Shown: positions 35,582-54,130 of the stretch, piece after piece
How the letters are laid out: every line of letters starts with the position of its first letter
How positions within the stretch are numbered: the first letter of the stretch is position 1
NCBI RefSeq assembly: GCF_040907265.1
Contig: NZ_JBFOHP010000002.1
Span: 5,518,001 to 5,582,000 of the forward strand
Reading direction: 5' to 3'
From: Streptomyces sclerotialus
GTDB taxonomy: Bacteria > Actinomycetota > Actinomycetes > Streptomycetales > Streptomycetaceae
DNA length: 64,000 nt
Notes under the pieces: model-generated
The model's database searches: none
What the model saw: only the letters and a program-made list of their open reading frames with translations
What the model was told of the DNA's origin: nothing
Program-made: the position numbers and the translations under genes

Positions 35582-37321
35582 TCATCGCGTTCCCGGGCCG
35601 TACTTCGACAGGGAGTCATTCACCTGGGCGGCGTGCGGTCCCTCCCACCAAGGGACGGTCTCGACGAGGGCCGGCCTGCTGCCCGAGGCCAGAACCAGAA
35701 CCCGGCCGAGAGGCATGGAGCTCAGGTCGGAGAAGTGCAGGGCGCGCTCTTGGTGGGCGGATGGACCGATGGCGCGGGCGCGCTTGCCTGAGCGGCCGCC
35801 GAACTTGGGCCTACGCCTCGTCCCGTGGCCGGTGAGGCCGGGCTCGCCCGTGAGCCGGGAAAGATCACCGAGGAATTTGCCGGTCGGGGTGCCACCGCCG
35901 TAGACCCGTATGTTCGCCGCGGACCACAGCTTCTCCATGCCGCGTTCGCCCCAGACTGCGACGCCTTGTGACCAGGATTGCAGTAGCGCCATCAGAATGA
36001 TGCCGCGCGCACCGTAGTGGGGGAACAGGTCGGGGAGGGCGCGCCAGCGGCAGATGTTGGCGACCTCGTCCAGGACGCCGATCAGCGGGACCGGGAGCCG
36101 GCCGTCGCGCTGCTCGGCCGCGTACTCCTCGGCAGCCTCGACCACCGCCACGGTCAGCGCGGTCACCAGCGGACCCGCGGAGGCCTGGCCTTCCCGGGAG
36201 AGCGCATACAGGACGCCGCCGGACCGTACGAAGTCATGCGGGTCGAACTCCGGCAGCGGAGTCCCGTCCGCCGGTGTCACCCACCTGCTGACATCGGTGC
36301 TGACCAGGAAGGAGACGATCTGCTGTGCCGTGCCGTAGATGCCACCACGTTGGTCGTCTGGAGCGGTTGTCACCCCCCGCACCTCATGCGCCGGCAGGAT
36401 GTGGCCTGCGGAGCGCAGGATGCGCTCGGGCGTGTCGTCCTTGGGGTCGGACAGCCAGGTGCAGACCTGTGTGATGGGCAGCTCACCGGTGGCTGCCGCC
36501 AGCAGCAGATTGGACAACAGGGTCTGGGCCGCAGGCCCGAAGAAACCGTCGGTGTACGCGTTCGTGTCCCGCGAGCCGGACACGAAGTGGTCGGCCAGCT
36601 TGCGGGCCTTGACGATGTCGGTGACGTACGAGAGCGGGTTCCACCACCAGCCGGGCGGCTCCTGCACGACGTGCTGCGGATCGAAGACCCACACGGGACC
36701 GCGGGCGGCCCGTGGACCGCGCGTCGCATCCACGATGTCCCGTTTGTTGGAGGTGACCAGCACCGCGCCTGGCGCGTCCAAGACTGCAGGGATCGCACGC
36801 CGCGTCGTCTTGCCCCTGCGCGGTCCCCAGATGTCGATGTGCATGTCCTCGAACGATCCGTACAGCGGCTGCCCGGCGTGTACGGACCGGCCGATGGGAA
36901 CACCGGGCACATCGGTCGACGTGACCGGCTGCTGGGCCGTGGTGACCGGGCTCAGGAGCGCGGGCTCGCCCGGTTCCTTGTTCTCGCCCTCGGCCGTGCC
37001 GCGTGCCACCTCATCGGTCTTCGTCCGGTCACGGGACCGCCGACGCAGGCGGTACCACAGCCCCACGGCGGCGCACGGCACCAGCAGCTCGCCGACCGCG
37101 ATCGCGGTGGCCGCGTCACCGGGCCACGCGTAGTCGCCCTTCGCCAGATCGATGACGAACATCAACGGATTGCCGTCGGGGGCCGGCCCACCCGTGACAG
37201 CCGCGCCACCCTTCGCGGCCAGCCAGGCGAGGCACGAACCCATCAGGAGGCTGACGACGGCAAAGATGATCTCGGCCGTCCAGTCGTCCTCGCCCCCGGA
37301 GTTCTTCTTGTCCTCGGTCAC
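35582..37321 (-). CDS. VirD4/TraG-family type IV coupling ATPase
   Basis: A 579-residue membrane ATPase. The N-terminus carries two hydrophobic segments (TAEIIFAVVSLLMGSCLAWLA and a second near residues 65-88), the usual VirD4 anchor. The ATPase core has Walker A GPRRGKTTR near residue 167, Walker B PLIGVLDEVANIC and a conserved ILMALLQSWSQGVAVWG helix. Coupling proteins select and pump DNA or protein substrates into a type IV channel. It is the last gene of the minus arm, 52 bases or so behind the lipoprotein gene. A relaxase, its normal DNA-processing partner, is not seen in the window. Confidence 0.9.
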   Translation of the reverse strand: MTEDKKNSGGEDDWTAEIIFAVVSLLMGSCLAWLAAKGGAAVTGGPAPDGNPLMFVIDLAKGDYAWPGDAATAIAVGELLVPCAAVGLWYRLRRRSRDRTKTDEVARGTAEGENKEPGEPALLSPVTTAQQPVTSTDVPGVPIGRSVHAGQPLYGSFEDMHIDIWGPRRGKTTRRAIPAVLDAPGAVLVTSNKRDIVDATRGPRAARGPVWVFDPQHVVQEPPGWWWNPLSYVTDIVKARKLADHFVSGSRDTNAYTDGFFGPAAQTLLSNLLLAAATGELPITQVCTWLSDPKDDTPERILRSAGHILPAHEVRGVTTAPDDQRGGIYGTAQQIVSFLVSTDVSRWVTPADGTPLPEFDPHDFVRSGGVLYALSREGQASAGPLVTALTVAVVEAAEEYAAEQRDGRLPVPLIGVLDEVANICRWRALPDLFPHYGARGIILMALLQSWSQGVAVWGERGMEKLWSAANIRVYGGGTPTGKFLGDLSRLTGEPGLTGHGTRRRPKFGGRSGKRARAIGPSAHQERALHFSDLSSMPLGRVLVLASGSRPALVETVPWWEGPHAAQVNDSLSKYGPGTR

Positions 37322-37373
37322 CCGTGTGGTGTCCCTTCTTGCCTGTCGGTGTGGGAGTCAGCGGGTATCCGGG

Positions 37374-38783
37374 TCAGACGGTCCGGGTGGCGAGGACGAA
37401 AAACCCGCCGTCGGAACGCAGCACGGCGTATCGGCCGTCGGTCGAGAACTCGGGCAATTCTTCGATCCCGGACCGCAGGATCTTCTTGTCACGCATGTCC
37501 AGGGCGACCGACGCGCCTTCGCTCAGGTCTGCGTACAGCACGCCATTGCCGGGAAGCGCTCGCGGAGTGATGCTTTGCTCGTCCTCCGCCTGCCGCCAGA
37601 GCTCTTCGCCGGACTCGGTGTCCCAGCCCACGGCACCCTCTCCGAACTGGGTCACGGTGATCTTGCCGTCGGGGGTGGTGGCGAATGCATCGTCGTCGGT
37701 GACCGAGTTGTACTCGATGGCGGGCCCCTGGGTGATCCGATGCCCGGTTCGCGCGTCGATGAGGGTCAGAACGGAATCCGTCTTGCCGTAGGCCGACCAC
37801 GCGAGGAGGGCCTTGTCCTTGTCGCCGTCCTCGAAGGCGGAGACCAAGGCACTGGTTCCCCGGTCCGCGGACAACTGCTCGCGTACCGCGGCCGGCGGCT
37901 CCAGGTCCTCCGTGCTCCACAGCATCTTGCCGGTGACGGCGTCGGTGGCCACCTGCCACTCGGAAGAGGGCTGGTAGGAACTGTCCACGGAGATGTCAAT
38001 GCCCGAGCCCTGATCGAGCCGCTCGCCACCCCCGGCGAGCGGCCGGGTGTGGACCGTTCTGCCCCCGCCGATGGGGATGTGCTCGCCCCCCTCGACGACA
38101 TCCCCTTCGTCGACGAGCGAGCCGCGCCGGACCGGCAGGCCCGCGTACTCCGTGTCGTCGAAGGACGAGCTGCCCAGCTGCACGCCCCGTGGGTCGTACA
38201 TGGTGAAGACGGACTTCAGCGAGCTCTTCTGGAGGCCGTCGGCCGGAGTGCGGACGCGGCTGCGTACCAGCAGTGCGGGAGAACCGTCCTTCCACTCGCC
38301 GACCTGCACCACGTCCGCGGCGGCGGAGCGCTGCTCGTCCGGGCCGCCGGCAGGGTCCTCCGCGACCTTCACCTCCAGCTTCTTGCGCAGTGCCCCGGTC
38401 TTCAGGTCACGCAGGCGGACGATGAACCGACTGTCGGCGGAGTCCTCCTGCGCCGCCTCCTCGACCAGCACCGCAGAATCACCGACCGTGCAGCGCTCCT
38501 CGTCGGAGTGACCGTCGCGCACTGTCCCCGCGTACCCCGCGCACTTCCCGGCTTTCTTCGACGCCAGGCTCCAGGACGGCTTCTCGGCGAGACCGGGTAT
38601 GGCCGGGCCGGTGAGTGCGGGGCCCGCCTTCCCGGTCCCGTCCCGGGGGGACGCGGCAGCGGACGGACGTGCGCCCCCCGTCCCGGTCTTCGGGCCGCCC
38701 TTCGCCTCGCCGACATCGCATCCGGTCACCAGTGTCAAGGACAGTACGAGACCGGTAATGGCCGCGCGGTGAGTCCTCTGCAA
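37374..38783 (-). CDS. PQQ-repeat-like beta-propeller lipoprotein
   Basis: About 469 residues. The N-terminus is a lipoprotein signal (ITGLVLSLTLVTGC, lipobox LVTGC) followed by a Gly/Ala/Pro-rich spacer. The rest shows repeated strands with Trp and DxxTG elements (SEWQVATDAVTGKMLWSTEDL, GWDTESGEELWRQAEDEQ), a pattern of PQQ-like beta-propellers. The start is taken as TTG 38783 because GGAG lies eight bases upstream; GTG 38789 is in frame but too close to that site. Surface propellers of this type serve as scaffolds. Its position between the coupling ATPase and wall hydrolase suggests an envelope part of the same machine. Confidence 0.78.
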   Translation of the reverse strand: MQRTHRAAITGLVLSLTLVTGCDVGEAKGGPKTGTGGARPSAAASPRDGTGKAGPALTGPAIPGLAEKPSWSLASKKAGKCAGYAGTVRDGHSDEERCTVGDSAVLVEEAAQEDSADSRFIVRLRDLKTGALRKKLEVKVAEDPAGGPDEQRSAAADVVQVGEWKDGSPALLVRSRVRTPADGLQKSSLKSVFTMYDPRGVQLGSSSFDDTEYAGLPVRRGSLVDEGDVVEGGEHIPIGGGRTVHTRPLAGGGERLDQGSGIDISVDSSYQPSSEWQVATDAVTGKMLWSTEDLEPPAAVREQLSADRGTSALVSAFEDGDKDKALLAWSAYGKTDSVLTLIDARTGHRITQGPAIEYNSVTDDDAFATTPDGKITVTQFGEGAVGWDTESGEELWRQAEDEQSITPRALPGNGVLYADLSEGASVALDMRDKKILRSGIEELPEFSTDGRYAVLRSDGGFFVLATRTV

Positions 38784-38824
38784 GACCACATCTCCGTTTC
38801 CTGTTGCTGGACGAGCCTGAGCGT

Positions 38825-41002
38825 TCAGGCTTCCTTGTGCTGGTCACCGCCGTCGGCCTCGACGGGGTCCGTCCCCTTCGGGATGGGAACGCGGTAAACG
38901 TTGGTGATCTTGTCCTGGACGTCCCAGGTGCTGAACTCCACGTTTTTGCCCGGGCGCGGCGCGTGAATGATCTTGTGGTCCTTGGGGTCCCAGACCATGG
39001 CGACATGCTCGGAGCCGCGACCGCTCGGATTGAAATAGATCAGGTCACCGGGCTGCGCCTCACTCAGTGAGATCTTGTACTTCCTGAGATGCGGCTCCTG
39101 GGAGTACGTCGTCCCGGTGATGTCGATCTTCTTGCCGCTGGCTTGGTAATACGCCCACTGGACGAAGCTGGAGCAGTCGAAGCTGGATGGGTCGTCGCCC
39201 GCCAACCGCGGCGCACCTAGGACGTACGGTGTCCCGATGCCGCGCTGGGCCCAGCCCAGCGCAGCGCGCACGACCGGATTGTCGGCGGAGGGCATCACGC
39301 CGGTCTCGCCGGCGCCGTCCGGCTCGACCTTGGGTCCCTTGGCCTGGGTAGCGCACTGCTGGTACGCCTCGTCGGTGGAGACCTGTTCCTGCTTGCCGCC
39401 CTGCCCGTCCGGCACGCTGCCGTAGTCGGGTGAAGCGGTGATCTTGCCCTGCATCCAGTCCTCCGGGTCGACCATGCCCGGTCCCGCGTCGTGACCGGCC
39501 ACGAAGGGGTTGTCGACACCCGGCATCCTGACCTCCCAGTGAAGGTGCGGGCCGGTGACATTGCCGGTCGCGCCGACCTTGCCGATCAGCTGTCCGCGCT
39601 TCACCCGGTCACCCGCAGAGACGAGGATCTGGGACTGGTGCGCGTAAAGCGTCACGACGCCGTTGGCATGCTTGATATCGGTCTCGTTGCCGTATGAACC
39701 GCCGGCGCCCGCTTTGGTGACCGTGCCGTCGGCCGGTGCGTAGATCGGAGTGCCGGTACCGGCCTTGAAGTCGAGTCCGGTGTGGTAACCGAGGGACCAG
39801 TTGTTGCCCGTCTCGCGGTACTTCGTGCCGATCTGGTAGGTGCCCTTCTTCAGGGGCCACTGCCAGTTCTTTCCTGCCTCGCCCTTCGGCTCGGCGGGGG
39901 CGCGCGGGGCCATGGGAGCGGCCACCGGACGGCTGTGAGCCACGGTGGCCATCGAGAGCGACGTTGCGGAGCGTGAGCCGAACGGTGTGGTGCTCGTCGC
40001 CGCTTCGTTGCCCGCGTCACTGTCCGGGGCGGCCGCCCGGACCTGCTCCTCGTCCTCCAGCGGGGGAGTCGACCACTTCTTCCTGGGTGACGCCTTGATG
40101 GTGCTCGCGTCCGAGATCTGGACGTTGTTGTTCACCGGCTCGGGGATGTCCGACTGCTGACCCAGCGTGGGGAAGCTGGGGTTCCTCTTGACCGTCTCGG
40201 CGAGGTGCTCGTACCAGCGCTTGATGAGTTTCTTGTCGCTGAGCAGTTCACCGCGGTAGCGCTCCGCCTGGGTCAGTACCACGCGCATGTAAATGGTGTT
40301 GGTCCGCTGCGAGCCGGAGTAGTGGCGCAGAGCTTCGTACGCGTCAGACTCGGCATGCTTGGCGTGCAGGTAGTTGGCCGTGGCGAAGGCCGCGTCATCG
40401 ACGTTGTAACGGTCCTTCTTGCCGTCGCCGTTGCCGTCGGCTCCATAATCCTTCCAGGCGGCGTCGCCGAACTGGAGGATGCCGCTGTAGCCATGGCCGT
40501 TGTCACCGCCCGGCGCGGCCGACTTGTCCTGGCCGAACTTGGTCTCCTGGTACATCTGTCCGGCGATGATCGTCCAGTCCAGGGACTTGTAGCGGGCCGC
40601 AGCGCGCATGGAAGCCAGGATCATGCGCGGTGGTACCTCGTAGCGGGCCGCCATGCTGGGGGCGTACATGCTGCCGGAGGGCATGATCGGCTTCGTGGCG
40701 GCAGCGGGCGATGTGTTGCCGTTGTTGGCGTTCTCCGCGTAGTCGCCGCACGCGGCGGTGGCGGCGCCGCCCACGTTGCCGAACAGTGAGGCCAGGAGGA
40801 TCACGATGACGAGACCGCCGACAGCCCAGGGCCATGCACTGCCGCTACTCAATGCCGCGATGATGATCAGGAGGCGGCGCCGCCTCTTCTTCTTCTCCTC
40901 CTCGTCATTGCCGTTTCCTCCGGCCGACCGGCCGGCTTGCTTGGCAGCCTTGGCGACCTTCGCCGCCTTGGCGGCCGCGGAGAGGACCGCGGGGGCTACC
41001 AC
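38825..41002 (-). CDS. Membrane-anchored triple wall hydrolase: lytic transglycosylase, M23, NlpC/P60
   Basis: A 725-residue protein with a Lys/Ala-rich and Arg-rich cytoplasmic start, one membrane segment (about residues 58-74) and three extracytoplasmic peptidoglycan-cleaving domains. The lysozyme/SLT-like domain has catalytic Glu near 153 (GQMYQETKFGQ) and GILQFGDAAW. The M23 endopeptidase domain has HTGLDF near 407 and HLHWEV near 488. The C-terminal NlpC/P60 domain has Cys near 607 (FDCSSF) and His in GSEHVAMVWD. Conjugation systems of Gram-positive bacteria often carry two-domain versions (VirB1/TcpG/TcpI type); three activities in one chain is unusual. The start is GTG 41002. Confidence 0.93.
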   Translation of the reverse strand: MVAPAVLSAAAKAAKVAKAAKQAGRSAGGNGNDEEEKKKRRRRLLIIIAALSSGSAWPWAVGGLVIVILLASLFGNVGGAATAACGDYAENANNGNTSPAAATKPIMPSGSMYAPSMAARYEVPPRMILASMRAAARYKSLDWTIIAGQMYQETKFGQDKSAAPGGDNGHGYSGILQFGDAAWKDYGADGNGDGKKDRYNVDDAAFATANYLHAKHAESDAYEALRHYSGSQRTNTIYMRVVLTQAERYRGELLSDKKLIKRWYEHLAETVKRNPSFPTLGQQSDIPEPVNNNVQISDASTIKASPRKKWSTPPLEDEEQVRAAAPDSDAGNEAATSTTPFGSRSATSLSMATVAHSRPVAAPMAPRAPAEPKGEAGKNWQWPLKKGTYQIGTKYRETGNNWSLGYHTGLDFKAGTGTPIYAPADGTVTKAGAGGSYGNETDIKHANGVVTLYAHQSQILVSAGDRVKRGQLIGKVGATGNVTGPHLHWEVRMPGVDNPFVAGHDAGPGMVDPEDWMQGKITASPDYGSVPDGQGGKQEQVSTDEAYQQCATQAKGPKVEPDGAGETGVMPSADNPVVRAALGWAQRGIGTPYVLGAPRLAGDDPSSFDCSSFVQWAYYQASGKKIDITGTTYSQEPHLRKYKISLSEAQPGDLIYFNPSGRGSEHVAMVWDPKDHKIIHAPRPGKNVEFSTWDVQDKITNVYRVPIPKGTDPVEADGGDQHKEA

Positions 41003-41009
41003 CGAATGC

Positions 41010-41699
41010 TCACTCCCCGCTCTCGTCGGAGGAACCGACGTTGCCCAGTCCGTAGAGATCGAAGCCGGTGACCCGCCATTCGCCGTAGCGGTAACGGGCG
41101 GTCACCAGCCAGGCATTGCTCTCCGTCTCGGTCTGTCCGTCCGCCTCGCGTTTGATGTCGACCCGCACCACAGTGGAGAGCATCTGGCCGCTGCCCTTGT
41201 TCAGGTCGTCCGACACCATGGCGTCCCGCTCGGCCACGGCCTTCGCGGTCGAGGAGCACTTGGTGTCCAGGCAGGTGTCCCACGCCTTGCCAGTGGGCAG
41301 GGAGGTGTCACGCTTCATCCGGCCGTCACCGGTGGTCAGCTGCAAAAGGGGCGGCGTCCACCGCGCCGGTGTGCTGGTGTGGTCGTACGTGTTGATACCG
41401 GCCATGTACTGGGCCATCACCTGGTGTGCCCGGCCCACTTCGGCCAGGGAGACGATGGGTGTGGGCTTGGGCTGGGCGCCCGGGTCCCCGTTCGATGCCC
41501 CGCCGTCCGTGGAGCCCGAGCCGCCGCTGGTGCTGCCCGTGGAGCCGGACGCCGCGGGACGCGGATCGCCGGATCCGGACTGCTCCGGCTCCCCGTCTCC
41601 GTCGAAGACCGTCAACACCACCAGCACGGCGATCAGGAGGAAGCCGAGCAATCCCAGGGCCAGTAGCCCTGTGCGCTTCTGCTTCTCATCCATCTCCAT
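41010..41699 (-). CDS. Single-pass membrane protein of the secretion locus
   Basis: A 229-residue protein. It has a short charged cytoplasmic start (MEMDEKQKRT), one membrane segment (GLLALGLLGFLLIAVLVVLTVF), a Gly/Ser-rich spacer, and an extracytoplasmic domain ending NAWLVTARYRYGEWRVTGFDLYGLG. That end has the feel of an NTF2-like or VirB8-like fold, but the match is weak. The start at ATG 41699 has a GGGAGG site. Its stop lies eight bases from the start of the wall hydrolase, so they are coupled. It is probably the first gene of the minus-arm operon. Confidence 0.75.
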   Translation of the reverse strand: MEMDEKQKRTGLLALGLLGFLLIAVLVVLTVFDGDGEPEQSGSGDPRPAASGSTGSTSGGSGSTDGGASNGDPGAQPKPTPIVSLAEVGRAHQVMAQYMAGINTYDHTSTPARWTPPLLQLTTGDGRMKRDTSLPTGKAWDTCLDTKCSSTAKAVAERDAMVSDDLNKGSGQMLSTVVRVDIKREADGQTETESNAWLVTARYRYGEWRVTGFDLYGLGNVGSSDESGE

Positions 41700-41812
41700 G
41701 GCCCCGGGCCTCCCTTGTCGTCTGCCGGTCCGGCGGTACGGGTGAGGTAACCGGGACACGGTAGGCAGGACGTGTAGCAGGAGCGCCGGAGCGTTTCCCC
41801 GGAACGGGCCGA

Positions 41813-41854: not shown

Positions 41855-41923
41855 CGGGCGGCAGGCGCGTGCCGGCAAGGGAACGGGCGGGGCCCACGGT
41901 GTCGTGGTCCCCGCCTGGGCTGC

Positions 41924-42589
41924 TCAGTCGACGTAATCGGTGAGGGTGCAGCCCTTGACGAGCGCCTTCTCGTTGCGGGCGCCGTTCGGCGGAGTGAAGT
42001 TCGGGAGGCAGTTCAGTTCCAGGGTGCCGAGCTCCACCAGGGCCTGCTTGTCACGGTCGCTCGCGTTGAGCTTCACCGCGAAGTTCTGGCCGACGAGGTA
42101 CCGGGCGGTCGAGTTGCCCTTACCCGCACGGACATCGGCCTCCTGGCGGGCCTTGTACGCGGCCTGGAAGCGTGTCATGTCGTCGATGAGGATCAGCCGG
42201 TGGATGTCGTCCGCGTAGGACTCGCCGTAACAGACCGCGCGGTCCTTGATGGACCATGCCTTGTTCGACTTGGCGAGGGCTGCCGCAGGGTCGCCCGTAC
42301 TGTCGCCGTCGATGAACTGGATATGGGTGGAGTCCGGGCCCTGGTCGACGTCCTGGCATTGGGTGGCCGTGGCAACGAGCTGCACCAGTGCGTCCATACT
42401 CGACACCTTGGTGAGACCGAGGTCCTTGCCGGGGTCGTTGCCGCTGTCCGCCTTTCCCTGCGCGCCGCCGTTCTTGCCTGCGGATGCGTCCCCGCCCTTG
42501 TTGCCCGGGTCGCTGTCCGATCCGCAGGCGGCAAGTGTGGTGAGAGAAAGCAGGGTGGCAGCAGTGGCGAGGATTCGCTTCGTACGCAT
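41924..42589 (-). CDS. Secretion-locus lipoprotein
   Basis: A 221-residue lipoprotein. The signal peptide ends in a lipobox (SLTTLAACGS), with the lipidated Cys near residue 22, followed by a Gly/Asp/Lys-rich spacer. The mature domain has two Cys pairs (TQCQDVDQG, AVCYGES, LNCLPNF, KGCTLTDYVD) that probably form disulfides. No named family is recognised. The start at ATG 42589 has AAGGAG eight bases upstream. It lies in the minus arm between the tail-anchored protein and the single-pass protein. Confidence 0.8.
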   Translation of the reverse strand: MRTKRILATAATLLSLTTLAACGSDSDPGNKGGDASAGKNGGAQGKADSGNDPGKDLGLTKVSSMDALVQLVATATQCQDVDQGPDSTHIQFIDGDSTGDPAAALAKSNKAWSIKDRAVCYGESYADDIHRLILIDDMTRFQAAYKARQEADVRAGKGNSTARYLVGQNFAVKLNASDRDKQALVELGTLELNCLPNFTPPNGARNEKALVKGCTLTDYVD

Positions 42590-42691
42590 GGAACAGGCTC
42601 CTTGCACAAGATGAACACAACGGGTCGTGTGGGATCACGGGTGGCGGCCCGGAAGAACGCAATGTCCGTCCCGCCGGGCCGTGATGGCGCG

Positions 42692-43457: not shown

Positions 43458-43584
43458 CCGTTCCTGCGTGAGGACAGCTCATCGAACCTTGCGGCAGGTG
43501 TTTGTCAGACTGCTCGGGCACCTGGCTGAACCGGGGCCCGCCACAGGGCGGCTGGCGACCGAATGCGTGGGAGACATCGACTCG

Positions 43585-45201
43585 ATGACGGACCAGAACC
43601 GCCCCGATGGCGGGTTCGGCGGAGGTCAGTACGCCGGGCAGCCCGCATCCTTCGGCAATCAGCAGCAGATGCCGCAGCAGGGGCAGCAGAATGCCCAACA
43701 GGGCGGTCAGGGTTACCCCCAGCAGCTCCAGCAGCCCTCCGACGCCGCCCGGGCCCAGGTCGCCGCAGCATGGGTGCGTAGCGCGCCGAAGGTCGGGCAG
43801 GCCGCAGTGCCGGACCTGCCGCCTCGTCAGACACAGCAGAGCGGCGGAAAAAAGAGCGACAAGGAGCGGGCCCGGGCGGCACGCAAGGCGGAATACGAGC
43901 GCAAGAAGGCCGCCCGCGAGGAAAAGAAGGCCCGGAAGAAGGGAATCACACCCGCCGCCCCCGTGACCGGTCGGTCGGCCGGAGCTCCCCATGCTGCGAG
44001 TGGGCACGCCGGCTCGAAACCTTCGGCAACCGGTGCGGCTTCGAAGTCCTTCCAGGATGCCGGAGCGGCGGCGGACGCCAGGGGGTCCGCGTTCGACGTG
44101 CCCAAGCCCGGCGGCAGGATTCCCCCCGGGCGGCGGACCCATGTCGCGTTGCGGGCCACGGCGCTGGCGACCACCTGCCTCTTCGCCCTGGGCTCCTGCG
44201 GCGTGATGGGACTGGTGGTGGGCAAGTCGGGTCAGCGGGTCGCCGAGCTGTCCAGCGGCGATGTGAAGCGGTACGGGCTGACCGAGTTCCCCACCGCCGA
44301 GGCTGCCGCCTTCGCCGAGCGGTACGCCATCGAGTGCCTGACGTTCAGCCCCCGGACCTCCGACCAGAGGCGGGCGACGCTCGCCCGGTTCCAGTCCTCC
44401 GGCGTGGACCCCGACTGCGGATGGAGCGGCGCGGGGAGCCAGAAAGCGGTCTCGGCGACCTGGGACGGCTCGGTGGAACCGCTGAAGGAATACGGCGAGC
44501 ACGGCCGTTATTTCGGTGTTCAGGTCAGGCTGAGCACGGGCCAGGTCACGGCGCTGACCGTACCCGTCTACGTCAAGGACCTGAAGTCCGGTCAGGGCCT
44601 TCGCATCGCCGGCGACGCCGGCCAGATGCCGCTCCCCACCGAGGGCACACCGCCCGCCGTCGCCGAGGAGGCAGAGATCGACGAGGGACTCTCGGCGCAG
44701 CTGCAGAGCAAAGTCTTCCCCGGCTACTTCGAGGCGTGGGGTGCATCCGACGCCACCGCGATGACCAGGTTCACCACACCGGACGCCTCCGAGGCAGCGA
44801 CGAGCGGTCTCCAGGGCGCACTGGAGAAGCCGTCCGTCGAGACCGTCGAGGCTGTCGTACCGCCGAGCGCGAAGGGCGACGACACCTACCACTACACGAC
44901 GGACCAAGAGGTCCAGGCCCGCGCACGAGTCGTCTGGACCGACGCGCAGGGCGGCAAGGTGACCCGGGCGTACCGGGTGATCGTGGTGAACACCGAACAG
45001 GGCTGGTTCATCAAGGACGTCCGTGGTGGTGTGCTCGACCCGGAGGGCGGTCGCGCCGACGAGGACGCACCGTCCGGCGGAGCCGAGCAACCGGCCACGG
45101 GCGATTCCCAGACCGATCCGAGCGCCGATCCGGAAACGCAGTCGGGCAAGAACTCCCGGCCGCCCGCCCATTCCAAGGCCAAGGGCGACAAGAAGTCCTG
45201 A
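43585..45201 (+). CDS. TcpC/VirB8-like conjugal transfer protein
   Basis: A 538-residue protein. The Gln-rich cytoplasmic N-terminus is followed by a basic helical stretch (DKERARAARKAEYERKKAAREEKKARKKG), one membrane segment near residues 185-212 (VALRATALATTCLFALGSC), and an extracytoplasmic region with two NTF2-like halves. The second half ends ARARVVWTDAQGGKVTRAYRVIVVNTEQGWFIKDV, which is the TcpC pattern. TcpC is the VirB8-like core component of Gram-positive conjugation systems. The start at ATG 43585 has GGGAG upstream. It opens the plus-arm operon. Confidence 0.83.
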   Translation: MTDQNRPDGGFGGGQYAGQPASFGNQQQMPQQGQQNAQQGGQGYPQQLQQPSDAARAQVAAAWVRSAPKVGQAAVPDLPPRQTQQSGGKKSDKERARAARKAEYERKKAAREEKKARKKGITPAAPVTGRSAGAPHAASGHAGSKPSATGAASKSFQDAGAAADARGSAFDVPKPGGRIPPGRRTHVALRATALATTCLFALGSCGVMGLVVGKSGQRVAELSSGDVKRYGLTEFPTAEAAAFAERYAIECLTFSPRTSDQRRATLARFQSSGVDPDCGWSGAGSQKAVSATWDGSVEPLKEYGEHGRYFGVQVRLSTGQVTALTVPVYVKDLKSGQGLRIAGDAGQMPLPTEGTPPAVAEEAEIDEGLSAQLQSKVFPGYFEAWGASDATAMTRFTTPDASEAATSGLQGALEKPSVETVEAVVPPSAKGDDTYHYTTDQEVQARARVVWTDAQGGKVTRAYRVIVVNTEQGWFIKDVRGGVLDPEGGRADEDAPSGGAEQPATGDSQTDPSADPETQSGKNSRPPAHSKAKGDKKS

Positions 45202-45562: not shown

Positions 45563-45604
45563 CTCGTGGCACTTTCTACAGCGCATTGATGAGGGGAACA
45601 GCTA

Positions 45605-46129
45605 ATGGCAGGGGAAGCCCCTGAGGGGATGGTCGCTTATGACCATACGGATCTGCTGAACCGCCCCAAAAAGATCTGGAACTGGGGGAACATCCCCCTC
45701 CCCGGGCTGCTGCTGCCCGCGCTGGGTGCGTCCCTGGCTTTTGGTGTGCTGTGGTTCGTACTCCTGCTCTCGCTGTCCGCAGCCCTGCCGTTCCTCGGCT
45801 TCGGAGTGGTGACCTCGATTCTGTACTTCGGTCCGCCGATCGCCGTCTATTTCGTCTGGGGCCGCCCGCTGCCGTCGGCGCTGACCCTCAGCCAGGAGCT
45901 GGTGGTCTGGGTCGACTACTGGTTGCAGCCCAAACGCCTGCAGGGTCTGAGCGCGGACCGTGAGCCGGAGGAAATGCACTGGCAGGTCATCCTCTGGAAT
46001 CCCGGTTCGGCTCGCTGGCAGTCGCGGTACGCCGCTGCCCGCGCGGCAGCGTCCGCACGCGGTACCTCCTTCTCCGCAGGAACCCCTGGTCCCCGACCAG
46101 ACGGCCTGCCCGACACATCCGCGGGATGA
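45605..46129 (+). CDS. TcpE/VirB3-like (PrgI-type) membrane protein
   Basis: A 174-residue protein. The N-terminal HTDLLNRPKKIWNWGNIPLPG is followed by two closely spaced membrane helices (LLLPALGASLAFGVLWFVLLL and LPFLGFGVVTSILYFGPPIAVYFVW). A cytoplasmic tail with VDYWLQPKRLQGL completes the TcpE/PrgI pattern. TcpE/VirB3 proteins sit with VirB4 at the inner face of the channel. The ATG at 45605 has GGGGAA upstream. The next gene, VirB4, begins six bases after its stop. Confidence 0.82.
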   Translation: MAGEAPEGMVAYDHTDLLNRPKKIWNWGNIPLPGLLLPALGASLAFGVLWFVLLLSLSAALPFLGFGVVTSILYFGPPIAVYFVWGRPLPSALTLSQELVVWVDYWLQPKRLQGLSADREPEEMHWQVILWNPGSARWQSRYAAARAAASARGTSFSAGTPGPRPDGLPDTSAG

Positions 46130-46135
46130 CGTCCG

Positions 46136-49126
46136 ATGTTCTTGATGATCCTTCTGCTTGCAGCGGTGGCGTTCTTCGTCATCACGCTCATCATGGCCGC
46201 TACATCCAAGGGCAAGGGGCAAGGCGGTCAGGGCAAGCGCGCGCGCACCTCTTCGTCCCGCTCCCACACCCAGGCGAAGCGCGAGGACCTGCGGCTGCCG
46301 TACCGGTACGCCGACGACATGATCTTTGTGCACGGCGATTCGGTGTGGACCGGTGTGGTGCTGCCGACTGCCATTGACGAGTACCTCAACGCCGCGGAGC
46401 TCCAGGCCATGGCGGAGAACCCGGCACGCGGCCTGCTGAACCTCGCGCGCGGCGACCGGAACGTCGAATGCCACTACCGCAAGGTCTACCAGCCGATCAC
46501 CGCGCTCACCTGGGCCGAGGACCTCAACGCGGTGGCCTGGGACCCGACGGAGAACTACAAGGCGTACAACCTCCGCAAGGCTAACTACCAGGAGCGCATC
46601 GGCGCGTTGCGAGAGCGGAACATCCTGCTCATCAAGCTCGGCGCACTCAAGCGCGGCAGCAACGGTGTGATGCTCGAGAAGGACGAGCCGAAGGAGGACC
46701 TCTCCGTCCTGCGCAGTGTGCGCGGAGTGGGTGACAAGGCCGCGTCCGCAGCGACCGGAGTGTCCGAGGAGTACCTCGATCCGGCCGTTCTCGCAGAATG
46801 GACGCAGGTCGCCACCGAGGTGCACGAAAGCCTGGAGAGCATGGGCGGCGCGCCGCTCTCCCGCGAAGAGCTGGTCTGGCTCATCCGCAAGCCGCTGCAC
46901 GGTGACCTGCCGGTGCCGCCCGAGCCGGTGCTCGGCAGCCGGTCCTGGGGGCCCGATCAGTTCGACCTGGTCGTGGACTTCTCCGGTGAGAACCGCAAGA
47001 CGCACATTGTGCTGCACCAATATGACGAGGAGTCCGGCGAGCGGCAGACCAGCTACACCACCACGTTGGTCGCGGCGAGCTGGCCCGCCGAAACGCGCTT
47101 CCGGCAGAGCACCGCGTGGGCGCGCTATGCGGCCCAGCATGTCGACTTCCCGGTCGAGATCGACATGCGGTTCACCTTGATCCCGCACCTGAAGTTCAAG
47201 AGCCAGGCCGACAAGATCCGCGGGAACCTCGTCGACGAGATGAACGACATGGCCAACTCGGGCCGCACCCCGGACACCAAGCTCGCCCAGCAGGTAACCC
47301 GGGCACAGCATCTCTGCGAGGACATCGACGAGCACAAGATGCCCGGCATGGAGGCGCAGATCCGCTTCACGATCTCAGCGCCCGACCTGAAGGAGCTGGA
47401 GCGCCGGCGCCGCGTCCTGGAACTTCAGTTCAAGCAGGACCTCAGGGTGACGCTGCTGCGTCCGACCCGGCAGCAGTGGCGCCTGCTCCAGTCGCAACTG
47501 CCCGGGGACGCGCCGAAGCTGCCCATCGCCCCGTACCTGCGCCTGCAGGAGGTCGAGCAGCTGGGCGCGGGACTGCCGACCGCTGGCACCGAGATCGGTG
47601 ACAACCCGGAGCACCGTTCGGGCAGGCGTCTGGGCTGGGTCGGCAATCTCGTCGGCTGGGCTGGGAAGATGCCCGTCCACTACTCACTGCACGTCGGGCC
47701 TGCCCGCAATGACGGTGGTGGGCTGGCGATCGTGGGTGCCTCCGGCGGTGGCAAGTCGTCGCTCGCCCTGCAGAAGTTCTACGAGGAGTCCGAGTCCGGC
47801 GTCCGCTGCCTGGTCATCGACCCCAAGACGGACTTTGCGCAGATGTGCTACTATCTCGCCTTCGGGGCGCAGGTGAACGACCCGGGTTTCACGGCCGATG
47901 CCGAAGCCGGCATCCTCGGCACCCCGCAGAGCCGCTTCCAGCCCATTAACCGGGAGTTCTGGGACGAGACGGAGGTCGTCGACCTCCTCAAGGGCCAAGC
48001 CGGCGTGCTCGACCCCTGGGTCATCGCGCGCGATGTGGCCTCGGGACGGTTGCTCGCCGAGAGCATGCTGCGTGGATTCCTGGGTGACGAGGACTACCAG
48101 CGCGTGCGGCTCCCGGTCATCGAGGCGATGGCCACGGTGGTCGGCTGGTACAACTCCGCTGTCCGGCAGGCCGTGGAGCAGGGCTACAACCCTCGCGACG
48201 CGGAGCGGCAGGTGCCCCGGCCCACACTGTGGCAAGTCGTCGACGAGGTGGTCCGCGCCTACGAGCGTGCCGTTGCGGCCGACGACCGAGAGGCGATCAA
48301 GGACCTCAAGCTCGCGCAGATGCTGCTCACCGAGCTGCGGACGCTGCCCTACGCCCGGCTGGCCTTTGCCGAGAAGCCGATGCCGCTGTCCAACATGCGC
48401 AAGCGCCGTACGGTCATCACGCTGCGTGGCTACCAGTCTCCTGCGGCCTCCGACCCGCGGAACTGGAACCCGGCGGAGCGGTTGGCGGCGACCGCACTAA
48501 TGGGCGTCGTGGAACTGGGCAGCCAGATGCTGGACGTCGGTTACGAGAAGAACCCGGTGACCGGCGAGGTGGGCCTGCGACCGAAGTCGCTGTTCGTGGA
48601 CGAGGCCTATGTCGTCACGGCCACCGATAGCGGCCGAGACCTCATCCGCCGGGCGCTGAAGCAGGGCCGTTCGTATCTGGCGGTCATCGTCCTGATCACA
48701 CAGCAGGCCATCGACCTGGTGCAGATCGAGGACTCCGAGGCACGCAGTGGTGGCGCCAACCAGATCCACACCGTGTTCGCGTTCAAGCAGAAGTCCGCTC
48801 AGGAGGCCGCGCTGGTGGCTCCGCTGCTGGGGCGGTCCGAGGAAGACCCGAAGGTCATCGGTGCCCTTCAGGAGCTGCGGACAGGCGTCTGTCTTCAGCG
48901 GGACGTCGACAAGCGTGTCGGCACGGTCGCGGTGGACCTGGTCTTCAAGGAGATCCTCGCGGCGACCGACACCAACGGCACGACCCGGCCCACCCGGCAG
49001 AGTGTCGATCCGCCACTGAGTGTGTGGGACTGGACGTTCATGCAGGAAGCCGCGGAGCCGAAGGAAGCCGCGGCGGAAGCCGCCTCTACGGAGGCGGAAA
49101 CGGCCTGGGCCGGCGCGGTGGGGTGA
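46136..49126 (+). CDS. VirB4-family type IV secretion ATPase
   Basis: A 996-residue ATPase. An N-terminal membrane segment (MILLLAAVAFFVITLIMAA) is followed by a basic stretch, the long N-terminal VirB4 domain, then the RecA-like core with Walker A VGASGGGKSSL near residue 533 and Walker B KSLFVDEAYVV near 817, and the late ILITQQAIDLVQIEDSEARSGG segment. VirB4 is the universal assembly ATPase of type IV systems and is the best single marker that this locus is a T4SS relative. An N-terminal membrane helix on VirB4 is typical of Gram-positive systems. It is coupled to the VirB3-like gene. Confidence 0.92.
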   Translation: MFLMILLLAAVAFFVITLIMAATSKGKGQGGQGKRARTSSSRSHTQAKREDLRLPYRYADDMIFVHGDSVWTGVVLPTAIDEYLNAAELQAMAENPARGLLNLARGDRNVECHYRKVYQPITALTWAEDLNAVAWDPTENYKAYNLRKANYQERIGALRERNILLIKLGALKRGSNGVMLEKDEPKEDLSVLRSVRGVGDKAASAATGVSEEYLDPAVLAEWTQVATEVHESLESMGGAPLSREELVWLIRKPLHGDLPVPPEPVLGSRSWGPDQFDLVVDFSGENRKTHIVLHQYDEESGERQTSYTTTLVAASWPAETRFRQSTAWARYAAQHVDFPVEIDMRFTLIPHLKFKSQADKIRGNLVDEMNDMANSGRTPDTKLAQQVTRAQHLCEDIDEHKMPGMEAQIRFTISAPDLKELERRRRVLELQFKQDLRVTLLRPTRQQWRLLQSQLPGDAPKLPIAPYLRLQEVEQLGAGLPTAGTEIGDNPEHRSGRRLGWVGNLVGWAGKMPVHYSLHVGPARNDGGGLAIVGASGGGKSSLALQKFYEESESGVRCLVIDPKTDFAQMCYYLAFGAQVNDPGFTADAEAGILGTPQSRFQPINREFWDETEVVDLLKGQAGVLDPWVIARDVASGRLLAESMLRGFLGDEDYQRVRLPVIEAMATVVGWYNSAVRQAVEQGYNPRDAERQVPRPTLWQVVDEVVRAYERAVAADDREAIKDLKLAQMLLTELRTLPYARLAFAEKPMPLSNMRKRRTVITLRGYQSPAASDPRNWNPAERLAATALMGVVELGSQMLDVGYEKNPVTGEVGLRPKSLFVDEAYVVTATDSGRDLIRRALKQGRSYLAVIVLITQQAIDLVQIEDSEARSGGANQIHTVFAFKQKSAQEAALVAPLLGRSEEDPKVIGALQELRTGVCLQRDVDKRVGTVAVDLVFKEILAATDTNGTTRPTRQSVDPPLSVWDWTFMQEAAEPKEAAAEAASTEAETAWAGAVG

Positions 49127-49219
49127 TGCGCGGCGGTGCGGCGGCCATGCCCGCTCCACCGTGCTCCTCTCGCTGCCCGCACCGTCCGTGTACTTGAAGC
49201 TTCTTCCGAAGGAACATTC

Positions 49220-51372
49220 ATGGGAATCCGCCGCCGGAGCGGTGCCGATCGCCTTCAGGGGCGCTGGACATGGCAATCCATGTGCAAAAAGCTGACCAGC
49301 GCTGGAGTGGCGGCCCGCGCCGCGCTGTTCGTCGTCCTCTCGATCGTGGCGCTTTCGCTCTCCGTGCCGCAGCCGGCTCATGCGCTTCTGGATTCGTGCG
49401 ACTGGGTGGACCAGAGCACCAACCAGAAGGCCGACTTCCCGGGTGCCAGCGCGGAGAACATCTTCCCGATGGTCAAGCAGTGGGACTCCAAGGGCGGCCA
49501 GGTCGCCGGTGCGACACGGCTGCAAGGTGATGCCTCCGGGTACACGATGTACGAGCTGGACGCCATGCGCGGGCTCAACTGGGCGTCGACCCAGGTGAGC
49601 AAGGAGCAGGCCAAGCCCGAGGACCAGGAGTCCGCCGAGGACGACGACTGCAGCATCCAGAACGACATGTACAACGGCATTGCCCAGATGATCTTCGATC
49701 TGAGCAAGATCGTCAGCCGGGCTGCCATCAGCGTCAAGGAGCTCTCCTCGAACCCCAGCCCCCTGGCACCGCTGTACGAGCAGACGACGGAGGGCAAGGA
49801 CAGCGTCGTCGACCGCCTGAACGATCGTGTCTTCAAGTTCGCCGTCCCCACCATGATCATGCTCACCGGCCTGTGGGTGTTCGGTAAGTATCGAAAAGGG
49901 GACATGCGGGAAGTCTGGTCCGGTGTGGGTTGGGCCGTATTCGTCGTGGTGGCGGTATCAGCCTTCCTGGTCAACGGGAATTACCGCGCGGTCATCGAGA
50001 AAGCGGACTCAGGAATCGCCCAGGGTAATGCGGTGCTGACCGAGGCCGTCCTGGGCAGCGCGACCGGCCTCATAGACCCGCCGTGCGACTTGGGGAAGGG
50101 TGCCTACAACCGCGGCATGCGGGTTTCCAGCTGTGCGATGTATGACACGCTGGCGTTCCGTCCCTGGGCGATCGGCCAGTTCGGAGACCCCGGGAAGAAC
50201 CCGATTCCGTACAAGGGGGACACCAAGTGTGACTTCGGCGCGCCGAAGCGCTGCAAGGACATGCGCGTCAAGCAGGTCGTTGTGCAATCGGTCACCAACA
50301 AGGACTATTACGGCGACCGGGACGACATCTCCAAGAAGAAGGAGAATCAGTACGGTGAGCTGAGGAATTACATCGCCAACAACAACGGCGGCATGTACGA
50401 CCAGTGGAGCGGCCGCAAGCCGGCCACCCGGATCACCATCGGCATTTATGCGCTGGTCGCTTCCTTCATCGTCGGTGTCATGGTGATCGTGCTGAGCATA
50501 CTGACCCTGCTCTGGCACGCGGTCACGCTCATCTTGGTGATTCTGTTGCCGCTGATCGCGTCGATATCCATTCATCCGAGTCAGCAGAAACTGCTGCGCG
50601 GATGGTGGGAGACCTTCGTGCACAGCTTCGTACTGCGCGCCGGATTCGGCGTCATCCTCACCATTCTGCTGCTCTTCTACCAGCTAATCCTGCCGCTCAA
50701 CGTGTCACTGGGCATGCAACTGCTCCTGCTACTGCTGGTCACGGTCGCCGTGGTGATGATGTTGAAGAATCTGCTCTCCGGAAAGTTCAGCCCGCAGGTC
50801 GCCGGTGCTCAGGACCCGACCGGCATCAAGGAGGTCGCGACCGGAGGCAGTAACACGGTCATGGCGAAGGGCGAGGCGTTCACCAGGGCCACGCCGGGCG
50901 GGGTCGGCCGGGTGGCGGCGAAGCCAGCACGGAAGCTCGGCCTCAAGATGGGCGACAAGATCGGCTCGGTCATACCCATCACTCCCAAGCAGAACGCGAA
51001 GTTCGAGGAGCGCGTGGCGGCGCGGGAGAAGGCGGCTGCGCAGCAGCGAGCGGCGCAGGCGGCGGCGCAGGAGGAGCAGCAGGAGAAGGCCAGGGAAGAG
51101 ATGTGGCGTCACGAGGTGCTGAACAGGATCAGCGCTTCCCAGGCGCCGCAGGGCGATCCGCAGAATCCGCCGGCCCCGGCCCGGCCTCGGGTGTCCAGGG
51201 GGAGCAGCGGCAGCAGCAGTCGTCCCCACAGCCACAGCCGCAGCCGCAGGGCCAGCAGACACCGCAGCGGCCGCAGCAGATACAGCAGCCGCAGCAGCGT
51301 CAGCCGCAACAGGGGCAGCAGTCTCCGCCTCCGTCGCTTCCGCTGCGTCCGAACGACGGCCGCACCCGCTAG
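49220..51372 (+). CDS. VirB6/TrbL-like polytopic membrane protein with apparent frameshift near the 3' end
   Basis: It has an N-terminal signal-like segment (ARAALFVVLSIVALSLSVPQPAHA), an extracytoplasmic domain, then at least five membrane helices (VPTMIMLTGLWVFG; WAVFVVVAVSAFLV; IGIYALVASFIVGVMVIVLS; LILVILLPLIASI; FGVILTILLLFYQLILPL), then a cytoplasmic coiled tail. This is the VirB6/TrbL-like channel subunit of the locus. As given, the frame runs on to 51697 as a Ser/Arg/Pro-rich tail overlapping the next gene. Restoring one G in the G5 run at 51198-51202 instead gives a Gln/Pro-rich tail ending RPNDGRTR at 51372. The start is ATG 49220 with AAGGA upstream. Confidence 0.82.
51198..51202 (+). 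other. Putative frameshift site (G5 homopolymer)
   Basis: Downstream of this run the reading frame with natural composition (Gln/Pro-rich, proper stop at 51372) is minus one relative to the upstream frame. One extra G joins the two. The causes to separate are an assembly error, a real single-base deletion, or programmed slippage. Confidence 0.7.
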
Positions 51373-51606
51373 TCGGCCGCCGTTCCGCACTCCGCCGTAC
51401 CACCCGAGGAGCCGTCCTGTGCCAGGCCCGATCGCACGCCGCTGCCCGCAGGAGTCGGGCGCGACGCCGTGCGTGTCGGCCGGCCCGGGCCGGGGCGGCC
51501 TTGGACCAGGGAAGCAGGAGAGGCGGGGGCGCCGGGTGGCGGGTCCGCCCGGGGCACGGAACGGAGGACGACGATTTCGAAGACAGCCGAGAAGGACGGG
51601 AAGATT

Positions 51607-52236
51607 ATGGCGGCAGGCGTATTCGGAGGCCGTTCCAGCATCACCGGGATCCTGCGCAGGGTGGTGCGTCAGGACCGAAGCGACCACTTCGCGGTGAAAC
51701 TGCTGCCGCGCGTCGTCTTCGGGTTGGCGGCCGCGTACACGCTCTTCTACATCGCGTCCTCGAGCGCTTCCGCCTTCGTCGGCGTGTGCGTGGTGAGCGT
51801 GCTCGGTCTCATCTGCTGGCTGCTGCGCATCCGCAGGCAGCTGCTGCTCGCGCTCGTCTCCACGCCCGTGACCATCGCTGTCACCGGTTACATGGCCGTG
51901 ATGGGCGATGCAGCCCGAGGGCTGACCGGCAGCCTGGTCAGTGGTCAGGCCGCCTTCGGCTACTGGGCTTTGGCCGGTATTGCCATGCTCGGTGCGTGGA
52001 TGGTCAAAGATCACCCCGGCCGACGCGGGGTGACCGTCGTCATCGCCGATGCGGTGCTCATCGTCACGTCATTCGTCGGTGCGCTGGTACCGGAGCTGTC
52101 CGTGGCGATCGGCTTCCTGGGAGTGGTGGCCGTGCTGGCGGCACGCGGCAGGGGCATCGCAGCGGTGCGACGTCGGACGGGGGCCCTGGTGCTCAGACTT
52201 CGAGGCGCCAGGAATCGTTCTTCTCCGGGCGAATGA
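51607..52236 (+). CDS. Multi-pass membrane protein of the secretion locus
   Basis: A 209-residue protein with about five to six hydrophobic helices (LLPRVVFGLAAAYTLFYIASS, AFVGVCVVSVLGLICWLL, LLLALVSTPVTIAVTGYMAVM, GYWALAGIAMLGAWMV, VTVVIADAVLIVTSFVGALV, VAIGFLGVVAVLAARG) and a basic C-terminus. No named family is recognised. The start at ATG 51607 is chosen over upstream Met because the hydrophobic core follows directly and a GGGAAG site is close. It ends the membrane-protein part of the plus arm. Confidence 0.75.
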   Translation: MAAGVFGGRSSITGILRRVVRQDRSDHFAVKLLPRVVFGLAAAYTLFYIASSSASAFVGVCVVSVLGLICWLLRIRRQLLLALVSTPVTIAVTGYMAVMGDAARGLTGSLVSGQAAFGYWALAGIAMLGAWMVKDHPGRRGVTVVIADAVLIVTSFVGALVPELSVAIGFLGVVAVLAARGRGIAAVRRRTGALVLRLRGARNRSSPGE

Positions 52237-52285
52237 CTGTGCCGTGAAGATCTTGAGTCGACTCTGTGTGCGCGGTCACGAGTTC

Positions 52286-54130
52286 ATGAAACCGCTTTGT
52301 AAGGCGGAAGGTTCATGTCCTAGAGTCCAGCCGAACGTTAGATCGTTTCGGGGGACTCACATCATACGTACGGTAAGCCGTGCGGCGCTGCATGAGCCGT
52401 ATCAGGCATCTTCAGAATCTTCGTCTTTCACGTCGTCTTCGCTGTCGTCGGCAGCCGACACCGCGTCCGCGCTTCCTTGCCAACGCCGGGCCGGCCTTTT
52501 CCAGCATCCATTGCTGGAAAACCCTCCTCTGCGGGCAAAAAGTTCGCAAGTGCAGATGCGCGAATTCAATGCGCTCGCGAGCGCGGCGCGGGAAATGTGC
52601 GCTTCCTGTCCGCTCTGGGCCGAGTGTCTGCGGGACGCCGTCGTGCACGCCGATCCGTACGGTTACGCCGCAGCGACCACGGCCGATGACCGTCGCTGGA
52701 TCCGACGGGAACTGGGCATCGGCGACGCGGAGGGGCGCCTGCCGTCAGGAGACGGTGACCATGGCTCGCTCAACGAGCTGGTGGTGGAGCAGCGTCGACA
52801 CCCGGGTGCCAGTCAGCGTGAAATGGCAGTTCGGCTCGGATGCAGCCGCAGCACCGTCTCCCGTCGGCTGGCGCGGGTGCGGTCCCGAATGGAGGACGAC
52901 GCCCTGGGCCGGTGTCATCCCGATGCCGACGTTCCTGAGCTCGAGGCGATTCTCGACGCCTTCGACGCGCTGCAGGACCACCTGGCGAAGGGGCAGGGGA
53001 TCGCGGTGCGGGTCGGGAGGGGGAGCGGCAGGGCGAAGCGGACCGCGCCCGGGAGCGGAGCCGCCGGCCGGTCGGCACCCGGACGGCCCACTGGCGGGCA
53101 GGCCGCAGCCGAGCGGCCGACATCGCCACTGCAATTACATGATGTGAACGGGGGAGCCATGGCGGACGGGGACGAGCAGCGGATCCTGTTCTCCTACGCC
53201 GATCCGGCGGCAGCCGTGCGCAAGGCCATGCTGTGGCCCTTGGTACGCGCCGCGGCACCCGCACTGGCCGGGGCGGAGCAGTTGGTCGCCATGCTCATCG
53301 CCGTGCCGGGCAGCGGTGTGACACCCGAGACGCTGGCAGGTATCCGGCAGGCACGCCCGGCCGTCGAGTCGTTGCTGTCCGACGCGGACGAATCCGCTCC
53401 CCGCGCGGAGGACGTGCTGCAAGGGTCGGTTTCGGTGGAGCTTGCCATGCAGAATCCGGTGGCGGCGCTGCAGAAGGCCTTCCTGGAACCGCTGCTGCAT
53501 AGCGTTGTGGACTCGCTCACGAACATCGAGACGGTCGGACTGATGCTCGCGGCGGTACCCGGGGCCAAGGCCGTCCCGGTGGATTTCGAGGCGATCCGCA
53601 GTGCCCGGCGGGCTCTGAAGGCTCAGCTCGCCGAGAACGGTACTGAGGGCGTGGGTACGGCCGAGAACGCGGCCCGGCCGGCGGCGCACGACGACGCAGT
53701 GTCGCCCACCGTCCCGGAGAATCGTTCCGGTCGGCCGGTGCTGGGCAGGGTGCCGAGGCAGCAACGGTCGACGAGCGGTCCGATGATCGGCCACGGGGTA
53801 CCCGCCGGTCCGGACTCTCCTGCTGTTCCACGACGTCCTCGGTCCGTTCCCACGAGCAGACCGATCAGCATTCGTGCCGCTGTCGAGCAAGCCGTGTCGA
53901 CCATCGCGGAACCGTTCACCGGCAAGGACGTGGCCGATGAGGTTGCCGCCCGGCGCGCTTCGGGCTCGCCGGCGACGGCCCGTGATTCGGGGAAGGCAGT
54001 AAGCAATGTACTCTCCGCCATGGTCAAGTCGGGGCGGCTGCGGCGGCTTTCCCGGGGTACGTACGTGCGGGCTCAGGGTGCTGCCGAAGGTTCCGGGGCC
54101 GCCGGGGTTCCGGACACCCCTGAGACCTGA
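52286..54130 (+). CDS. WhiB-like protein fused to HTH and C-terminal winged-helix regions
   Basis: A WhiB-type iron-sulfur module has four Cys (LPCQRR, then EMCASCPLWAEC with Cx2Cx5C) and a turn DPYGYAAATTADDRRWIRR in place of the usual G-V/I-W-G-G. It is followed by an HTH (SQREMAVRLGCSRSTVSRRLARVR), a low-complexity linker, two similar helical repeats (PAAAVRKAMLWPLVRA and PVAALQKAFLEPLLHS) and a C-terminal winged helix (VAEEVAARR-like, VLSAMVKSGRLRRLSRGTYVRA). The start is uncertain: no good codon lies between 52286 and the first Cys, and the first 30 codons look non-coding. A TTA codon at 53135 and a ribosome-site-preceded ATG at 53159 mean the second half may be a separate gene. Confidence 0.72.
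   Translation: MKPLCKAEGSCPRVQPNVRSFRGTHIIRTVSRAALHEPYQASSESSSFTSSSLSSAADTASALPCQRRAGLFQHPLLENPPLRAKSSQVQMREFNALASAAREMCASCPLWAECLRDAVVHADPYGYAAATTADDRRWIRRELGIGDAEGRLPSGDGDHGSLNELVVEQRRHPGASQREMAVRLGCSRSTVSRRLARVRSRMEDDALGRCHPDADVPELEAILDAFDALQDHLAKGQGIAVRVGRGSGRAKRTAPGSGAAGRSAPGRPTGGQAAAERPTSPLQLHDVNGGAMADGDEQRILFSYADPAAAVRKAMLWPLVRAAAPALAGAEQLVAMLIAVPGSGVTPETLAGIRQARPAVESLLSDADESAPRAEDVLQGSVSVELAMQNPVAALQKAFLEPLLHSVVDSLTNIETVGLMLAAVPGAKAVPVDFEAIRSARRALKAQLAENGTEGVGTAENAARPAAHDDAVSPTVPENRSGRPVLGRVPRQQRSTSGPMIGHGVPAGPDSPAVPRRPRSVPTSRPISIRAAVEQAVSTIAEPFTGKDVADEVAARRASGSPATARDSGKAVSNVLSAMVKSGRLRRLSRGTYVRAQGAAEGSGAAGVPDTPET
52297..52326 (+). promoter_or_regulatory. Candidate promoter for the WhiB-like gene
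   Basis: TTGTAA (52297-52302), an 18-base spacer and TAGAGT (52321-52326) match a vegetative Streptomyces promoter. If used, transcription starts near 52333, which would place the true start codon downstream of 52286 and require a non-standard codon or a frame correction. Confidence 0.5.

Follow-up and report, generated by a model that had tools for sequence, protein, structure and literature searches.

The window analyzed here is a stretch of 64,000 nt from Streptomyces sclerotialus (contig NZ_JBFOHP010000002.1, positions 5518001-5582000; the genome is 8.28 Mb in two contigs), and it contains a compact type IV secretion system (T4SS) of the Gram-positive type at 35582-54442, hereafter the block (Table 1). 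Its genes are arranged as two arms that diverge from each other. Encoded on the minus arm are a TraG/VirD4 ATPase, a lipoprotein with a beta-propeller, a wall hydrolase, two small proteins (membrane proteins or lipoproteins) and a protein anchored by its tail, and on the plus arm TcpC/VirB8, pilin-like, VirB3-like and VirB4 proteins, a large VirB6, a protein with multiple transmembrane (TM) segments, a WhiB/helix-turn-helix (HTH) regulator and an 87-aa protein. Such a multi-component system in two arms had been proposed from the sequence alone, and this original prediction is borne out by family matches for TraG/VirD4, VirB4, VirB6, TcpC/VirB8 and the wall hydrolase; the block thus has the VirB4, VirD4-type coupling protein, VirB8/TcpC, VirB1-type hydrolase and VirB6 by which a Gram-positive T4SS is recognized. 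Of the two smaller components it named, the pilin-like gene is supported by a match just below the cut-off, and the VirB3-like gene is assigned by its position. The extent first given (35582 to 54130) was right on the left side and too short on the right, because the next gene, coding for the 87-aa protein, is found in exactly those 6 of the 199 Streptomyces genomes searched that also have VirB4 and is counted in the block. GC content, measured over 2-kb lengths, is 63-71% within the block and 65-77% in the rest of the window.

Table 1. Features of the T4SS block (positions in the window).
Feature	Position	Strand	Evidence and remarks
TraG/VirD4-like coupling ATPase	35582..37321	-	PF12696 E 1.2e-21, PF02534 E 1.1e-11, both above cut-off; Walker A at residue 166
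Lipoprotein with PQQ-type beta-propeller	37374..38789	-	PF13360 E 1.6e-6; lipobox by eye
Membrane-anchored wall hydrolase (VirB1-like)	38825..41002	-	M23 E 1.4e-32, NlpC/P60 E 1.6e-14, weak SLT
Single-TM protein, conserved in block	41010..41699	-	gene cluster 8 (21 loci + window); no family match
Small lipoprotein	41924..42607	-	1-3 copies after VirB4 in most relatives
Approximate site of missing DUF4913 gene	42590..42691	.	gene in 19/21 relatives covering the site; not in window
Pro/Gln-rich protein, C-terminal TM segment	42692..43396	-	true start uncertain
TcpC/VirB8-like	43567..45201	+	PF12642 E 7.4e-25
Pilin-like (VirB2-like), 86 aa	45270..45530	+	PF04956 TrbC/VirB2 E 2.4e-5, 24.9 bits (cut-off 27.9)
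VirB3-like	45605..46129	+	position only (place conserved); no family match
VirB4 ATPase, TcpF-like	46136..49126	+	PF12846 E 2.9e-27, above cut-off; NF052333 TcpF E 4.6e-21, below cut-off; Walker A at residue 534
VirB6-like polytopic protein	49136..51697	+	NF046089 E 6e-20, 71.5 bits (cut-off 120)
Alpha-gene 5' relic	51395..51463	+	start codon 51419; blastn 80% over 70 nt to L008 15273-15342, E 1.4e-7, colinear
Multi-TM protein	51607..52236	+	after cargo slot in relatives; no family match
Regulator-like: WhiB-like Cys cluster, HTH, AbiEi-like winged helix	52430..54130	+	PF02467 E 9e-7; start uncertain
87-aa end gene	54179..54442	+	co-occurs with VirB4; no family match

No relaxase, integrase, transposase or FtsK/TraB protein was detected among 50 Pfam queries, which covered every listed gene of the window longer than 80 aa (one query being an antisense open reading frame (ORF); thresholds 1e-6 to 1), and no tRNA gene was found in the window. 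When the two borders were compared (34001-35700 against 54001-55500, words of at least 12 nt), the longest shared word was one inverted 12-mer, while 200 control pairs gave a median of 12 and a maximum of 16. These searches agree with the earlier statements that no relaxase, TraB or integrase is in view and that the locus is not an ordinary integrative and conjugative element (ICE): neither the relaxase nor the integrase with att repeats of an ICE was found in the block, nor the FtsK/TraB protein that marks an actinomycete ICE (AICE). A divergent relaxase could escape a Pfam search, since Pfam missed a relaxase relative at 1.08 Mb in this same genome. That protein is 45% identical over 576 columns to the sole PF03432 relaxase match of the genome, which lies at 2.567 Mb, 3.0 Mb from the block, in a stretch that also has a phage-type integrase. 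The relative belongs to a second T4SS in the genome, which differs in type and is located at 1.06-1.08 Mb (L139/L140, G000:C2:1055000-1085000), together with TraG, DUF4913 and MobC genes. This second system, and TraG homologues (E<=1e-30) in 90 of the 199 Streptomyces genomes, do not support the idea that such multi-component systems are unusual among Streptomyces; the genus widely has coupling proteins of this class. The system at 1.06-1.08 Mb also shows a weak EccE-like match.

Comparison across Streptomyces, as had been advised, shows the block to be variably present. VirB4 (E<=1e-20) was found in 6 of the 199 genomes including that of the window, with 84-87% identity in the other five. A stricter search of the class (E<=1e-100) found it in 4 of 394 genomes, again including this one and all within 1 of 137 genera. 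A set of 26 named loci was retrieved for comparison, and in 17 genomes whose flanks were read the block occupies five chromosomal settings (our grouping, from gene clusters; G202 matches on the right side only). Eleven of these genomes have it near hspR-dnaJ-grpE-dnaK and two (the window and G199) between HD-protein and penicillin-binding protein (PBP) genes, and the three further settings are those of G204/G205, G206 and G210. Reading of the flanks in the 17 genomes, without profile searches, brought no relaxase to notice. Five genomes that carry the block at another site have no T4SS in the PBP region, where genes of AurF or DUF3291 type lie nearby. Between the window and its sister species G199, which share the HD/PBP site, synonymous divergence (dS) is 0.13-0.45 for flanking genes (median 0.24, n=11) and 0.47-0.93 for block genes (median 0.73, n=12; end gene 0.31), so that the block is about three times more diverged than its neighbors. 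In the VirB4 tree, the window groups with L008, from a different site (support 100/99), and not with L009 or L010 from the same site. Because block dS exceeds flank dS and the window VirB4 pairs with that of L008, the sequences indicate that the block was replaced or acquired by horizontal exchange, independently of the neighboring genes. The five settings and this exchange speak in part against the suggestion of an element domesticated at one place.

The relatives also revealed something invisible from the window alone, namely that cargo genes have been lost here. There are 31 loci with VirB4 besides that of the window; eight were set aside, namely six that are too short (L003-L007 and L019) as well as L031-L032, which leaves 23 loci that cover the cargo slot. 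The latter two, from S. diastatochromogenes, have a VirB4 of 50% identity and represent a distinct element lineage; by visual inspection, the neighbors of L031 resemble genes for FtsK, ParA and primase. The cargo consists of two genes that we call alpha and beta, which were drawn from a cluster of 75 proteins (cluster 0): 45 alpha (191-212 aa), 28 beta (306-421 aa; the start is clearly shortened in two of them) and two fragments (55 and 65 aa) that were excluded. The alpha sets A2 and A3 comprise 8 of the 45, and 20 of the 45 plus the alpha of L103, respectively. Beta is present in one to three copies in the operons of 20 of the 23 loci, accompanied by alpha in 19 of the 20 (L028 has beta without alpha), and three relatives (L018, L025 and L027) are cargo-less. 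An alpha gene lies directly upstream of 23 of the 28 beta genes, with a 4-nt overlap in 20 cases; the other five are a mix of gene-calling gaps and true absences. Two members of the scabies group lack a TraG of the window's kind (they have others, at 37-39% identity), the beta-propeller lipoprotein, DUF4913 and cargo, which may reflect loss or an older state, as their position in the VirB4 tree is compatible with both. The small lipoprotein gene is duplicated or triplicated behind VirB4 in L006, L011, L013, L015, L016, L019, L024, L026 and L029.

Across the 199 genomes, with one beta protein as query, beta occurs in six: five of the six VirB4 genomes, and G042. It was found only together with a T4SS or TraG. 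In G042 (L103, G042:C10:238000-257000), a TraG-alpha-beta-DUF4913 set is seated on a different T4SS backbone; its TraG is 75% identical to that of L009, its VirB4-like ORF (of which 528 aa could be read before the sequence stretch ends) shows 29.6% identity over 206 residues, and the other T4SS parts gave no match to the block at E 1e-6. Alpha occurs in seven genomes, the additional one being G013, where two alpha domains are joined in one frame (L104 9655-11001, minus strand), perhaps as an orphan immunity gene, with no beta or T4SS in the 19 kb read. Alpha matched no immunity family and gave weak fold matches; its occurrence is coupled to that of beta.

Beta is predicted to adopt the CD38/ADP-ribosyl cyclase (ARC) fold, and is probably an NAD(P)-consuming enzyme. 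E112, W149 and E181 are invariant and W72 is conserved in at least 90% of the proteins; W149 and E181 align with ARC toxins, and W72 and E112 are matched by order only. The predicted CD38 fold, with two catalytic Glu and two Trp, is shared with the antibacterial ARC toxins Tac1, of a type VII secretion system (T7SS), and ARCtox, of a type VI system (T6SS). Unlike these, beta is a stand-alone protein linked to a T4SS, with N-terminal helices and a long disordered tail in which an unconserved linker is followed by a conserved C-terminal tip. In the accessible text of PMC12605009, the delivery routes named for ARC toxins are T6SS, T7SS and contact-dependent inhibition (CDI).

In the window, the gap between the VirB6 and multi-TM genes, which is the place of alpha and beta in L008, retains about 70 nt of the alpha upstream region and first codons. 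After this relic the sequence resumes at the next gene, and the rest of the short gap scores no higher than shuffled sequence; the remainder of alpha and the whole of beta are absent from the slot. Neither gene was found elsewhere in the genome, so the window member is without known cargo in cis. The DUF4913 gene is also gone, from an otherwise colinear stretch, and the disordered tail of VirB6 has a frame change at about 51.1-51.2 kb: the ORF runs on to 51697, while a tail like those of the relatives is read in a different frame and stops at 51372. Either a genuine mutation or an error in sequencing may account for this. The other block genes have open frames.

We read the locus, with a probability of roughly 0.57, as belonging to a family of Streptomyces islands that encode a Gram-positive T4SS for protein translocation and have neither relaxase nor integrase, the copy in the window having been disarmed; the same estimate covers the proposal that this copy once had the alpha-beta pair and lost it by deletion. 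The reading draws on gene content, the failure to find a relaxase or an integrase in the vicinity, the linkage of the cargo, the predicted fold and conserved residues of beta, the alpha relic and exchange of the block, and from these we infer secretion, docking, toxicity, immunity and target. It had been suggested that the system may move protein or DNA in a non-classical way, and it is the protein part that the cargo of the relatives favors. That cargo, and the analogy with antibacterial T4SS of Gram-negative bacteria, suggests effector delivery, and makes the family a strong candidate for toxin delivery through a T4SS in Gram-positive bacteria. The cargo of armed members would be the alpha-beta pair, with beta a CD38-like NAD(P)-consuming enzyme. 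The TraG coupling ATPase would dock beta via its disordered tail and C-terminal tip, DUF4913 perhaps assisting, and the VirB3/B4/B6 translocon would pass it through a wall breach cut by the hydrolase into a neighboring hypha or cell, where NAD would be drained; alpha would shield the producer or chaperone beta. The window copy would then be an empty launcher, in slow decay or used for other substrates in trans. More tentatively, and at slightly less than even odds, the family may be specialized to kill or tame neighbors by injecting CD38-like NAD-destroying enzymes, which would be marked by their short tip at the C-terminus and passed on by a docking set of TraG and DUF4913, exchangeable and able to fit two T4SS chassis; lineages would gain, multiply or lose the warhead and keep the launcher.

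The most credible alternative, itself unlikely, is a defective ICE, that is, a conjugative element that has lost its relaxase and integrase and is decaying, with alpha and beta as accessory genes. The core gene order is also that of Rhodococcus plasmids, of which one has been typed as MOBP; Streptomyces elements without an integrase, coupling protein or relaxase are so termed in a published screen (PMC9513070, in its accessible part); and the gene losses of the window copy and the scabies-group members without this kind of TraG would also fit. However, one gene set is found in 17 genomes and five settings, with no relaxase noticed beside it, and independent decays are unlikely to preserve one boundary and one gene set; moreover, dN/dS is 0.05-0.53 for the block genes tested and 0.10-0.12 for VirB4. 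We regard as slightly less probable that alpha and beta are an intracellular pair parked in the island and not a substrate, serving as toxin-antitoxin, in signaling (cyclic ADP-ribose, cADPR) or in phage defense. While cADPR-releasing ARC enzymes outside conflict systems exist, according to the available portion of PMC12356396, and the tandem alpha of G013 lies apart from any T4SS in the stretch read, the occurrence of beta, across the 199 genomes, only with T4SS/TraG, its linkage to TraG on a second T4SS type and the conserved tip beyond an unconserved linker all point away from a resident function, and PADLOC had no family for the alpha and beta proteins tested.

Least probable of the three is mobilization of DNA or plasmids in trans, whereby TraG and the channel would serve relaxases elsewhere, for example at 1.08 or 2.57 Mb. 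The genome does have a PF03432 relaxase and its relative with MobC, and the system at 1.06-1.08 Mb carries TraG and a DUF4913 gene, but the relaxases are about 3 and 4.5 Mb distant, the second system owns a TraG, and the linkage of a non-DNA enzyme cargo would be left unexplained.

Among known systems, the block resembles the Tcp-like conjugative T4SS of Rhodococcus plasmids in having TcpC, pilin-like, VirB3-like, VirB4 and VirB6 genes in a row, a membrane wall hydrolase and a VirD4-like ATPase, but differs in that no relaxase or integrase was found in it and that most members carry protein cargo. Its VirB4 is 30-36% identical to those of Rhodococcus and related plasmids, and 56% identical over 57% of its length to one on a Streptomyces plasmid. 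With AICE/TraB transfer of Streptomyces it has in common only a P-loop ATPase, the single FtsK-like translocase of that system having no counterpart found in the block. As far as the available descriptions go, the antibacterial T4SS of Xanthomonas, Stenotrophomonas and Lysobacter offer an analogy in toxin delivery, partner genes next to toxins and a C-terminal consensus, but they are Gram-negative, and the likeness is one of description only. The 89K T4SS of Streptococcus suis is a Gram-positive system with reported protein export, although in the accessible text of PMC12857230 the export is of a protease to the medium, with no toxin-partner cargo. In S. albireticuli, a cluster A exported alarmone synthetase without a signal peptide co-occurs with conjugation genes, and a T4SS role was suggested; it is a different enzyme from beta, and the T4SS genes differ by the names given (PMC12691689, in the part available). 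No paper among those listed from the open-licence literature was found to describe a T4SS with alpha-beta cargo. The soil Streptomyces family offers a concrete and tractable candidate, with cargo genes identified, an enzyme predicted, a signal proposed, and members that naturally lack cargo available as controls.

The genes flanking the block are of ordinary chromosomal kind, including Lon protease, 2-oxoglutarate dehydrogenase, AurF-like oxygenases, the HD protein, PBP and FtsW/RodA. Elsewhere in the window, two adjoining plus-strand genes (1967-4963 and 5092-7881) specify TIR + NB-ARC + TPR proteins of 998 and 929 aa, an architecture of STAND-type defense, and a tandem pair of GH25 lysozyme-like genes occurs at 18016-19821 on the minus strand. 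Genes for P450, acyl carrier protein, KAS III, PhyH and carbamoyltransferase at 57992-63715 likely mark the edge of a biosynthetic cluster.

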